Shown piece after piece: positions 20,245 to 27,742 of a stretch of DNA of 38,370 nucleotides. This stretch comes from Algoriphagus sp. Its GTDB lineage: Bacteria; Bacteroidota; Bacteroidia; Cytophagales; Cyclobacteriaceae. The notes beneath the pieces were generated by a model. That model had not been told where the DNA came from, made no database searches, and saw only the letters and a list, made by a program, of their open reading frames with translations. A program made the position numbers and the translations under genes. Each line of letters starts with the position of its first letter. The stretch's first letter is position 1. The stretch covers positions 1 to 38,370 of the forward strand of contig JAHEBE010000004.1 in NCBI GenBank assembly GCA_024642365.1, written 5' to 3'.

Positions 20245-21858
20245 ATGAAACGAATTTCTTTGGTCAAAATCCAATTTGGCCTTTTACTCTGGGTAAGTTT
20301 TGGCTTCACCTCATTTGCCCAGCTTAGCAGTTCCAAACTTCCCATCGTAGTCATTACAACTGATGTAGCCATACCAGATGAGCCAAAAGTTTTAGGAAGG
20401 ATGGGAATTATCTGGAACGGTGGAGGTACTGAAAATAAAATCACAGATCCTTATAACCATTTCGACGGACCAATTGGTATCGAAATCAGAGGCCAAACCT
20501 CCCAAATGTTCCCTAAAAAAAGCTATGGATTAGAACTATGGGATGAAAATCAAGACGGAATTGACTTCGCTTTGCTGGGATTCCCGGCAGAGGAGGACTT
20601 TGTTTTTCATGGTCCTTTTAGTGACAAATCACTCATGCGAAATGCCTTGGCTTATTACCTCGCTTCCAAAAGCATGACTTATGCACCAAGAATAAAATTT
20701 TTTGAGTTGGTTCTGAATAACCAATACATGGGTGTCTACTTGCTGACAGAGAAAATCAAACGCGATAAAAATAGAGTTGACATCAAAAAAATTGAACCCG
20801 TAGATATTTCGGGTGACAAACTGACTGGAGGATATATTCTTAAGTTTGACAAGGGAGATCCTGAGGAAGTAGCGTGGGAGTCTCCTATCCTACCTTTCCC
20901 AGGAGCTAAAAAGACAAAATTCCTTTATGAAACTCCCAAATATGATGAGATCGTACCAGAGCAATTCAATTACATCAAAGGATATATAGATGAGTTTGAA
21001 CTAGTCTTGAAAGGAACAGAATTCAAAGACCCTGTTAATGGATACGCCAAATACATCAACGTAGCTAGTTTTATTGATTTTTCCCTCATCAATGAAATCG
21101 GCAGAAATGTGGACGGATATCGTTTGAGCACCTTTTTTTATAAAGATCGGACGAGTTTGGGAGGAAAATTAACAGCCGGTCCAGTTTGGGATTTTAATCT
21201 AGCTTTTGGCAATGCCAATTATTGCGATGGTTCGAATATCGATGGATGGGCTTGGGACTTTAATTCCGTTTGCTCGCAAGACAATTGGTTTATTCATTTT
21301 TGGTGGAAACGGTTATTAGAAGACCCAGCATATAGAAATAAAATGTCAGATCGCTGGAGAGAATTACGAAAAGGTCCATTTTCAGATGCTAAAATCATGT
21401 TTGCGATTGATAGCATGCAACAAGAAATCGGAGAAGCTGGAACTCGCAATTTTCAACAATGGGACGTGCTTGGAAAATATATTTGGCCAAATAATTTTAT
21501 TGGAAAAACCTATGCTGAGGAAATGAACTATTTGAAAACCTGGGTTCAAGACCGATTAAATTGGATGGATTATCAGTTTGATGTAATCCTTGCATTAGAG
21601 CCGGAGGAAAATCTTGGATTTAAACTTTATCCAAACCCTTCCTCTGGGAAGATTTTCATCGAAACAGATAAGCCATGGAATAACGGGGAAATAATGACCA
21701 TTTATTCCAGCTTGGGACAAGAAGTTCAATCTTTCAAATTGCCGGAAGGAGAACTTCAAATAGATTTTGAATTGAATGCTCCAAGGGGAATTTATCTGTA
21801 TCAAATCGCCGATCCAATTGGAAAAGTCATGAAGCAAGGAAAAATTTTAATCCAATAA
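20245..21858 (+). CDS. CotH kinase family protein with T9SS type A C-terminal sorting domain
   Basis: YLLTEKIKRDKNRVDIKKIE, GGYILKFDKGD, GPVWDFNLAFGNANYCDG are CotH motifs; C-terminus FKLYPNPSSGKIFIETDKP...GIYLYQIADPIGKVMKQGKILIQ is a type IX sorting domain. Confidence 0.88.
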   Translation: MKRISLVKIQFGLLLWVSFGFTSFAQLSSSKLPIVVITTDVAIPDEPKVLGRMGIIWNGGGTENKITDPYNHFDGPIGIEIRGQTSQMFPKKSYGLELWDENQDGIDFALLGFPAEEDFVFHGPFSDKSLMRNALAYYLASKSMTYAPRIKFFELVLNNQYMGVYLLTEKIKRDKNRVDIKKIEPVDISGDKLTGGYILKFDKGDPEEVAWESPILPFPGAKKTKFLYETPKYDEIVPEQFNYIKGYIDEFELVLKGTEFKDPVNGYAKYINVASFIDFSLINEIGRNVDGYRLSTFFYKDRTSLGGKLTAGPVWDFNLAFGNANYCDGSNIDGWAWDFNSVCSQDNWFIHFWWKRLLEDPAYRNKMSDRWRELRKGPFSDAKIMFAIDSMQQEIGEAGTRNFQQWDVLGKYIWPNNFIGKTYAEEMNYLKTWVQDRLNWMDYQFDVILALEPEENLGFKLYPNPSSGKIFIETDKPWNNGEIMTIYSSLGQEVQSFKLPEGELQIDFELNAPRGIYLYQIADPIGKVMKQGKILIQ

Positions 21859-21865
21859 ATGAGGG

Positions 21866-21893
21866 AGCCAGAATATTTTTCTGGCTTTTTTTA
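21866..21893 (+). terminator. Intrinsic terminator
   Basis: AGCCAGAA...TTCTGGCTTTTTTT immediately after the CotH-like gene. Confidence 0.8.
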
Positions 21894-21950
21894 TTTACTG
21901 TTTCCAACCTTTTTATACTTAAACCACTCTTCCTAGTATAAGCACCACAA

Positions 21951-22481
21951 ATGAGTCAGATTCAAACAGATCAGGAATTAATCGAAAAAGTCATCTCAAA
22001 TGACCGAAAAGCTCAATTTCAGCTCTTTGAACTGACCAAACGCTTGGTATACTCGCTGGCATTTCGGATACTAAATGATGAGGATGACGCACAAGACGTC
22101 CTTCAAGACACTTATGTAGAGGTGTTCCAGCAAATAAAAAAACTGAGCCATCCAGACGCATTGATTTCTTGGATGAAAACAATCACAATGCGTAAAGCCA
22201 TCCAAAAAAGTAAAAAACAAATCCGCTTCGAACCTCTTGATGGAGTTCCTGATGAATCCCATGATGAGTTGAATTCTTGGTTTGATGCAGAGCTTTTGGA
22301 CCAAGCAATAAGAAGTCTCCCAGCGGGATCTAGGGCAGTTTTTATGTTGGTGGCAGTGGAGGGATATCCGCATCAGGAATGCGCTAAGCTCCTAGGCATA
22401 AGTGAAAGCACTTCCAAATCGCAATTGAATTATGCGAAAGGACTCTTGAAAAAAAGAATAAAAACACTCCTTCAAGCATGA
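21951..22481 (+). CDS. RNA polymerase sigma factor, ECF/sigma-70 family
   Basis: LAFRILNDEDDAQDVLQDTYVEVFQQI (region 2), ISWMKTITMRKAIQKSKK, LPAGSRAVFMLVAVEGYPHQECAKLLGISESTSKSQLNYAKGLLKKRI (region 4). Confidence 0.93.
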   Translation: MSQIQTDQELIEKVISNDRKAQFQLFELTKRLVYSLAFRILNDEDDAQDVLQDTYVEVFQQIKKLSHPDALISWMKTITMRKAIQKSKKQIRFEPLDGVPDESHDELNSWFDAELLDQAIRSLPAGSRAVFMLVAVEGYPHQECAKLLGISESTSKSQLNYAKGLLKKRIKTLLQA

Positions 22482-23164
22482 AAAATCTATCGAATCATCA
22501 TAGCCCAAAGGAAGACAGCTGGGAGAAAATCATGGCTGAAGTTAGCTTTGAAAAACAACTAACAGGACACCTTTCAAATCTTCCACAGTATGAACCTGAA
22601 GGAAATACTTGGGAGAAAATCGTCAACCGATTAGATGAAAAACATAAAATTGTCCTTTGGCCTTACTTCGGAATTGCAGCCACCTTAATCGGAGGATTGT
22701 TACTATCAACACTTTTATTAACCAAAGAAGAATTATCAATTTCTAGTTTCGACAAACAACACGAATTGACTCAAATTGAAGAATTGGAGATTCCATTCGA
22801 ATTAACCAAACCAACAAAAGAGTCCTTAGAACCCAAAAGAATAGCTTCCACTAAACCCAGGCTAGCCAGCAAAGCTCAGGTGAAGAATCAAGACCTTCCG
22901 CAAGTCAGTATTTCCCTTCCTGAAATTGATTTAATCGCGACCAATAAGGAGATCATCCTGCCCGAGAAATCTGACATTGATCCCGAGAATAAAAATATTT
23001 CTAATCCAAAAACTCTCCATGAGGTGACGATTTCATGGGGAATAAAAGCAAATGGATTTCAAGTGAAAACAAGTTTTGGGAAGCAAGATCCAAGCACGCT
23101 TGAATCTAAACAGACTGGGAGTATTTCCAGATCCAAACGCATCCGAATCGGAGATAAAAATTAA
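22478..23164 (+). CDS. Single-pass membrane protein, candidate non-canonical anti-sigma factor
   Basis: ATGA overlap with the sigma gene; cytosolic-like N-terminus with duplicated (S/T)WEKI(M/V) motif; one TM segment (VLWPYFGIAATLIGGLLLSTLLL); no HxxxCxxC zinc motif seen. Confidence 0.6.
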   Translation: MKNLSNHHSPKEDSWEKIMAEVSFEKQLTGHLSNLPQYEPEGNTWEKIVNRLDEKHKIVLWPYFGIAATLIGGLLLSTLLLTKEELSISSFDKQHELTQIEELEIPFELTKPTKESLEPKRIASTKPRLASKAQVKNQDLPQVSISLPEIDLIATNKEIILPEKSDIDPENKNISNPKTLHEVTISWGIKANGFQVKTSFGKQDPSTLESKQTGSISRSKRIRIGDKN

Positions 23165-23189
23165 AAACCAACCTTAAACTAATACCAAA

Positions 23190-23948
23190 ATGAAAAGATT
23201 TACACTTCTCACTGGCATTGCTATGCTTGTTTCATTTTCCACTTTTTCACAGGAATTTGAAAATAAGCTCTTCGGAAACGAGATGGAAAAACTCAATTCC
23301 GAATACCCTATCACTGACACTCTCGTATTTGATTTGCCTAATGAGGGGAAATTAATACTCATGTTTAACAGTACAGAGTATCAAATCGAAGAGCTTGAAG
23401 ATCGATTTTCCAAAGTCTTGAAAGAAACTACCGATTTTCCAGAATTCCAATCGCTGACTTATCGACTGAGTGAAGAATATGGCAATACCAAACAAGATGC
23501 AGTAATCCTTGATTTAGAGCGGAAATATTTACCCTATGTGGATCAATTGGAACTCGGACTTGTCTTGGGTATGGATTATACAGGGGGAAGCTTTACGCCT
23601 ACTTTTGGAGCTAAAGCGATGTTTAATTTTAGGAAATTTGATATCGGCGCATCCTTAGTCAATACTGTTTATTTTCCGGAACGGATAGAAAAAAACATCA
23701 AAGTGAATAGCAATTGGTTTGCAAATTTGGAGTTCCGTTGGGACCGCAGCAATCCAAAATCAAATTCAGCAAATGTATTCGGAGCGGGGATTTTATTGAA
23801 TTCCAATGATAGTCAACTATTCACCGGAACCACAATGCAAGCCTTTTACCGTCGAAAAATAAATCAAAACATATCAATTCAAGTAGGCATCATCGGCACC
23901 GAAAACTTAAAAACTTTTTACCCAACTATCGGTATCCGATTTTGGTAA
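23190..23948 (+). CDS. Secreted/OM beta-barrel protein of unknown function
   Basis: Signal peptide ...FSTFSQE; C-terminal half has beta-barrel alternation ending ...FYPTIGIRFW. Confidence 0.65.
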   Translation: MKRFTLLTGIAMLVSFSTFSQEFENKLFGNEMEKLNSEYPITDTLVFDLPNEGKLILMFNSTEYQIEELEDRFSKVLKETTDFPEFQSLTYRLSEEYGNTKQDAVILDLERKYLPYVDQLELGLVLGMDYTGGSFTPTFGAKAMFNFRKFDIGASLVNTVYFPERIEKNIKVNSNWFANLEFRWDRSNPKSNSANVFGAGILLNSNDSQLFTGTTMQAFYRRKINQNISIQVGIIGTENLKTFYPTIGIRFW

Positions 23949-23984
23949 AAAAAATAGCCGGTTCATCGCCGGCTATTTTTTTGA
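23947..23984. terminator. Bidirectional intrinsic terminator
   Basis: AAAAATAGCCGG-ttcatcg-CCGGCTATTTTTTT between convergent genes. Confidence 0.9.
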
Positions 23985-27151: not shown

Positions 27152-27742
27152 ATGAAGTACAAAATCATCCTCTTATTTATTCTATTCCCTTTTCTAAGCC
27201 AAGCTCAAGAAAGAAGCATTGGTTTGAGAATCGGCGAACCAATTTCAGTCACTTTCAAGGATTTTATTTCAGATTACGTCTCTTTTGAGCTGATGCTCGG
27301 AAGTGCAGGCCTCAACGGAGCAAGCTATTTCCAAAGGGATTTTGAAAATAATCCCCCAAATTCCAGTGCCTTTTATCTTTCACATAGCGCCAAAAAAGGG
27401 ATTTCTTTGAATGGCAGGCTCGCCTACAATGAAGACATTACAGATGTCTTTGGCATAGAACAAGGATATTTGCTTGGCTATGGCGGAGCTGGAGTGCAGT
27501 TACGGACTGCTTCGCTAACTTACAGATACACGGACGGTTTGATTTCAAATGGCAATACTCCAATATTTGAAGAAACCCGAACCAATATAGATTTTGGTCC
27601 AGAGGCTTTTATCGGAGCTGAATATTATTTTGATGAGCTACCGATGAATATTTTTGTAGAGGCTGGAATGTTTTTGGAACTTTTAGACCGAGTAGGACAT
27701 ATCAAAGGTCAAGGAGGAATTGGTGTTCGATACATTTTCTAA
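27152..27742 (+). CDS. Secreted/outer-membrane protein of unknown function
   Basis: Signal peptide MKYKIILLFILFPFLSQAQE, beta-rich, C-terminal GGIGVRYIF. Start moved from 27119 to ATG 27152. Confidence 0.65.
   Translation: MKYKIILLFILFPFLSQAQERSIGLRIGEPISVTFKDFISDYVSFELMLGSAGLNGASYFQRDFENNPPNSSAFYLSHSAKKGISLNGRLAYNEDITDVFGIEQGYLLGYGGAGVQLRTASLTYRYTDGLISNGNTPIFEETRTNIDFGPEAFIGAEYYFDELPMNIFVEAGMFLELLDRVGHIKGQGGIGVRYIF

Follow-up and report, generated by a model that had tools for sequence, protein, structure and literature searches.

The regulators closest to the locus described here are the dual membrane-spanning anti-sigma factors (Dma) that accompany Das in Bacteroides thetaiotaomicron (PMC13088901) and Reo, the partner of EcfO in B. 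fragilis and Phocaeicola vulgatus (PMC9308784). In these systems an ECF sigma gene adjoins a membrane anti-sigma that has an N-terminal sigma-binding part, one transmembrane (TM) helix, a long disordered periplasmic tether and an outer membrane (OM) barrel, and loss of the anti-sigma strongly induces the sigma operon (PMC13088901, PMC9308784); deletion of dma2, for instance, strongly induces das2 and its neighbours (PMC13088901). The Reo response is elicited by envelope-damaging toxins (PMC9308784, PMC13114119). In class I anti-sigmas such as RseA, RsiW and ChrR, helix 1 binds sigma4 and helix 4 binds sigma2, and their domains (ASDIs) adjoin only 6% of Bacteroidetes ECFs, among which other classes may dominate (PMC7406223).

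Parts of this kind are found, in split form, in an Algoriphagus sp. contig, of which a stretch of 38,370 nucleotides (henceforth the window) was analysed. Three genes on the + strand, all confirmed as open reading frames, make up the trio of sigma factor, single-TM protein and barrel protein of the original prediction. SIG (21951–22481, 176 aa) is an ECF sigma factor that matches Pfam Sigma70_r2 and Sigma70_r4_2, both over the cut-off, with region 2 at about residues 25–90 and region 4 at about 114–162. ASG (22478–23164, 228 aa) is a single-TM protein and the putative anti-sigma, and BRL (23190–23948, 252 aa) has a predicted signal peptide, a periplasmic alpha/beta domain and an 8-stranded OM barrel. 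ASG starts inside the SIG stop codon (ATGA, at 22478), as had been pointed out, and of the 26 named Algoriphagus loci in which SIG is intact, 24 keep this overlap. Terminator-like hairpins lie on the + strand between the upstream CotH gene and the trio (21861–21891) and 3' of BRL (23948–23982); the region has three such sites against 2.0 ± 1.4 in shuffles, so their position weighs more than their count. The gene directly upstream (20266–21858, +) encodes a CotH kinase protein with a type IX secretion tail. Beyond the trio, a signal-peptide protein with no Pfam match (27158–27742, +) occupies the same place in other Algoriphagus loci.

Upstream of SIG there is an ECF-type promoter element, CCAACCTTTT-N13-CTCTT (21904–21931, +). 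It aligns gap-free in 26 of 27 loci, of which some differ at one or two positions, and is absent in A. resistens from the stretch compared. The exact form precedes SIG in 15 of the 22 trio genomes and in two remnants of the locus, while the four other exact matches fall inside coding genes (YchF, identified by sequence, in three genomes, and a dehydratase-like gene) and a reversed-pattern control produced three matches in 61 genomes. Allowing two mismatches in the 15 trio genomes returned 85 matches, about 15 of which are the SIG site, against 74 for the reversed control, i.e. no signal of a wider regulon above background beyond SIG. The sigma genes of the sister two-unit clade (see below) are preceded by related motifs. 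Conservation of the element suggests a self-contained operon that would be transcribed under the control of its own sigma factor.

The three genes are conserved together. In our sample of 61 Algoriphagus genomes ASG was found in 22, the same 22 carry a full-length BRL, and SIG adjoins them every time; the trio is complete in 21, the SIG frame of the remaining genome (G001) being broken by a stop. Identity to the window copy is 61–83% for SIG, 39–80% for BRL and, for ASG, 26–43% by BLAST and 23–43% over the 22 aligned orthologues. Three further genomes (L153, L347 and L154) hold joint remnants of the trio at the same syntenic site, between genes for a putative PLP-type transsulfuration enzyme (by sequence) and a DUF4293 protein, each decayed differently: one retains the promoter and SIG 1–103 joined to BRL 170–244, another the promoter and the first codons of SIG, and the third the last 46 codons of BRL. 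No intact SIG without ASG was seen among the 61 genomes, as expected of a sigma factor that is harmful without its inhibitor, and also as would be left by one block deletion per lineage. A contig search with BRL retrieved 27 named loci, from Algoriphagus or its family; a nucleotide-pattern search of contigs with ASG alone gave no match because ASG diverges too fast.

The one TM helix and the duplicated (S/T)WEKI(M/V) motif described earlier for ASG are both where they had been placed. Hydropathy puts the TM helix at about residues 61–83 (22658–22726, +), inside a predicted helix covering residues 61–97, and the motifs occupy residues 12–22 (EDSWEKIMAEV) and 42–52 (GNTWEKIVNRL). They belong to unit 1 (residues 10–22, with W15; 22505–22543, +) and to the TM-proximal unit 2 (residues 24–53, with W45; 22547–22636, +). 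Shuffling of ASG residues 1–58 yields two W..[ILVM] motifs in 3.5% of cases, so that in a single ASG sequence the motif is weak evidence; what makes it real is conservation, since both tryptophans are invariant in 22 of 22 aligned orthologues despite the low overall identity of these proteins. ASG contains no cysteine and thus, as had been noted, no zinc anti-sigma motif (H-x3-C-x2-C). Searches of Pfam and NCBIfam gave no match for ASG or BRL, and a PDB sequence search no credible match for ASG. Its structural model is poor (mean pLDDT 54) and predicts, at low confidence, three short helices on the cytoplasmic side and a single TM helix, then a long disordered stretch that leads to a C-terminal hairpin of two extra-cytoplasmic beta strands. 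This hairpin and an H-x-V-x-I-S-W motif (residues 181–200; 23018–23077, +) follow a variable linker, and H181, V183 and W187 are invariant in the aligned orthologues.

For BRL the AlphaFold model (pLDDT 80) agrees with the expected signal-peptide protein with a C-terminal beta-barrel, and gives a periplasmic alpha/beta N-domain (residues 25–115) followed by eight strands (119–251); the barrel (119–252) ends in RFW. The best PDB fold neighbours are the 8-stranded OM barrels NspA, the OprF N-terminus, Ail and OmpA, at E values of only 0.006–0.04. PDB sequence matches of BRL to designed proteins were dropped, as no stretch passes on its own. A kinship of the N-domain with other split barrels, proposed by eye from the pattern DTxxxxFxxxxKI, was likewise not significant (N-domain alone: probability 2.4%, E 0.019), and scored higher only when the signal peptide was included.

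The duplication in ASG is nothing peculiar to this locus. The motif belongs to a repeat unit with a consensus of about F..L.....P....W..I(E)..LD, present in relatives in 1–6 copies directly before the TM helix, with proline at position −5 in 109 of 119 proteins when the W is used as the alignment anchor. A profile of ASG finds relatives beside ECF sigmas throughout the order. At the threshold used, the ECF family of SIG is present in 226 of 247 Bacteroidia genomes, with up to 12 members per genome, and of 100 proteins sampled from the genes downstream of its members, 93 carry W..[ILVM] ahead of the TM helix, where shuffling predicts 22. We compared profiles restricted to the part before the TM helix, so that the helix itself was excluded: the Algoriphagus ASG profile aligned with two-unit proteins of another family (hhalign E 1.1e-17), with the N-termini of fused-barrel, Dma-like proteins (E 6.6e-13) and with single-unit split systems (E 1.6e-6), a reversed-profile control giving 0.08. 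All three fused proteins tested have a C-terminal OMP_b-brl_2 domain, two of them over the cut-off. The suggestion that this regulator is unlike known families is thus supported for the zinc anti-sigmas and FecR (no cysteine, no Pfam match) and not supported beyond them: its unit is homologous to the N-termini of proteins with the Dma/Reo architecture and is widespread in Bacteroidia. Some Dma-like proteins (L213, L078, L171, L194) carry at least four W..I units ahead of the TM helix. Many class-level anti-sigmas of the ASG type (L240–L264, L265–L344) are 280–390 aa long with a Gly/Ala/Ser-rich stretch before the TM helix, and the large genes downstream of them (700–800 aa) may be further sensor types.

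A tree of the sigma factors separates four groups: two-unit proteins, fused barrels, and two groups of one-unit proteins, which come either with DUF4097 or with a separate barrel. The two-unit group, formed by Algoriphagus with BRL and another family with DUF4097, is firm (support 0.996) and the deep branches are weak; the DUF4097 match is over the cut-off in L065. By this grouping, separate barrels seem to have entered such systems on more than one occasion. The genome of the window itself carries a second split system, a one-unit one (L090, G000:C50:1500-7500), made up of a sigma factor, a one-unit TM protein, a 345-aa barrel, another barrel-like protein and a beta-rich secreted protein. Elsewhere (L062–L066, L071, L155–L158, L160–L162, L183) the same sigma/anti-sigma pairs are followed by DUF4097-like genes and, in some cases, then by an OM barrel.

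To look for contacts between SIG and ASG we applied mean-field direct coupling analysis (DCA) to 210 sigma/ASG pairs (Neff 162), numbering ASG positions from the conserved W (A0, W45 in the window). The first 119 pairs had been suggestive only and the set was enlarged to 210 before conclusions were drawn. The pair S159/A-19 equalled the best score within the sigma factor itself; next came S48/A-4, S56/A+3, S35/A-9, S116/A-16 and S19/A+8. By these pairs, sigma region 4 is coupled to helix 1, the helix of the unit that precedes the proline, and region 2 to the helix that carries the W. Two of the pairs, R19 to D(+8) and V/I56 to I(+3), make chemical sense. The mean score of the top 15 couplings was 1.56, against 1.00 ± 0.03 after shuffling partners within 37 sigma clusters, and control segments taken from the TM helix and linker of these proteins, which leave pairing and phylogeny unchanged, gave 0.98, 0.89 and 0.77, none of their pairs reaching the ten best intra scores. 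The same SIG/ASG pairs stayed on top when the two-unit clade was left out, and couplings trained without that clade scored unit 2 above unit 1 in 27 of 35 two-unit proteins, most of which are related and do not amount to 35 independent tests. From this preference we infer that the TM-proximal unit 2 is the one that binds the sigma factor. In held-out clusters the cognate partner ranked at a mean percentile of 0.70, which is moderate, and the corresponding p-value overstates significance because the pairs are related. The predicted SIG–ASG contacts, along with the joint conservation of the three genes, support the original prediction of a cell-envelope signalling relay of sigma factor, membrane anti-sigma and OM barrel.

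A link between ASG and BRL is more tentative. BRL occurs in two sequence types in the Algoriphagus loci (L106–L132), whose distribution departs from the SIG tree. The switch of type has carried the C-terminus of ASG along in A. resistens and A. antarcticus, which places an exchange point within that gene, and in A. chordae, A. aquimarinus and A. aestuarii BRL alone has been exchanged. Strict co-segregation of the ASG C-terminus with BRL type was consequently rejected; BRL is exchangeable, and any contact it makes with ASG is not type-specific. The H-x-V-x-I-S-W motif is common to loci of both types and is the best candidate for such a contact, which is plausible and, in our judgement, somewhat more probable than its absence. 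One may speculate that exchange of a surface barrel reflects phage or predator pressure.

Taken as a whole, the trio probably forms a self-contained envelope-sensing switch that resembles a Dma anti-sigma with the barrel as a separate protein. ASG would keep SIG inactive at the inner membrane, with the two helices of its TM-proximal unit clamping sigma regions 4 and 2, as the coevolution supports. Its TM helix and a disordered periplasmic stretch of roughly 85 residues could reach the OM, where the conserved C-terminal hairpin would meet the periplasmic domain of BRL. BRL probably supplies the signal: a change in it (damage, misassembly or a ligand) would alter the contact with ASG and free SIG, which would then transcribe its own operon from the CCAACCTTTT-N13-CTCTT element, and more SIG, ASG and BRL would be made until BRL resets the switch. 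Given that Reo responds to envelope-damaging toxins, OM damage is the first candidate signal for the trio.

That ASG acts as the anti-sigma is very likely. Coevolution indicates that SIG and ASG touch and says nothing of the sign of the effect, for which we rely on the genetics of Dma and Reo, so one could picture ASG as a membrane adaptor that recruits or activates SIG. We consider this highly improbable, as the couplings use the same sigma regions as class I anti-sigmas, the Dma/Reo members are genetically negative and none of the 61 genomes keeps an intact SIG without ASG. About as improbable is a miniature of FecA/FecR-like cell-surface signalling, with BRL as transducer and its periplasmic N-domain as signalling domain; it would share the three-component logic of an OM protein, a membrane anti-sigma and an ECF sigma in one locus, but FecR/FecA has a FecR domain and a TonB-dependent receptor, for which ASG and BRL have no match, BRL being instead a small 8-stranded barrel and ASG a homologue of Dma-like N-termini. 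A larger share of doubt attaches to the role of BRL. ASG might sense a periplasmic or membrane cue alone and BRL be mere output, its amount adjusted by the circuit without touching ASG. This would fit the swapping of BRL type, which is uncoupled from SIG and in three species also from the ASG C-terminus, and the DUF4097 gene that follows ASG in the place of BRL in the sister clade of SIG. Strict retention of BRL, strong conservation of the ASG C-terminal motif after a variable linker and the fusion of barrel and anti-sigma in Dma/Reo speak against such a role, and we regard it as unlikely, if clearly less so than the other two.

The trio can now be placed among described anti-sigmas. With ASDIs it shares, by the ASG couplings, a predicted dual sigma2/sigma4 interface, but its unit has only about 30 residues and two helices against the four of an ASDI, no zinc motif and no Pfam match. 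Over its whole cytoplasmic part ASG is predicted, at low confidence, to have three short helices before the TM helix. The zinc anti-sigmas differ by their cysteines. Sequence comparison supports a split, two-unit relative of Dma, akin to the published Dma/Reo class: the ASG unit is homologous to the N-termini of the fused proteins that stand in for Dma1/2 and Reo, and the TM helix and long disordered periplasmic tether are present in the low-confidence model. The cognate sigma of a Dma is of the ECF21 group; SIG and the sigmas next to fused Dma-like proteins fall into one family. Dma, however, has one unit and carries its C-terminal barrel in the same polypeptide; ASG has two units and ends after a short hairpin, and the barrel is the next gene, with a signal peptide and a periplasmic domain of its own. 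The trio should not be filed as Dma, since it lacks the fused barrel by which that class is defined.

Somewhat on the probable side, in our view, is a broader reading in which P-x4-W-x2-I-E-x2-L-D is a minimal anti-sigma module whose two helices suffice to clamp sigma regions 4 and 2, repeated 1–6 times and joined to interchangeable envelope sensors (fused barrel, separate barrel or DUF4097 toastrack). Much of the gap in the known anti-sigmas of Bacteroidota would then be filled, Dma/Reo being one sub-architecture and the window the split two-unit one. The repeat unit provides a sequence-level handle on what regulates the Bacteroidetes ECFs that are not beside a class I anti-sigma (PMC7406223), with residue pairs named for testing, and it ties a genus-specific trio of Algoriphagus to the Dma and Reo systems, which have effects on vesiculation, on the response to toxins and on gut fitness in Bacteroides and Phocaeicola. 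With the split form, sensor and inhibitor could be examined one protein at a time, an option that a fused Dma does not offer.
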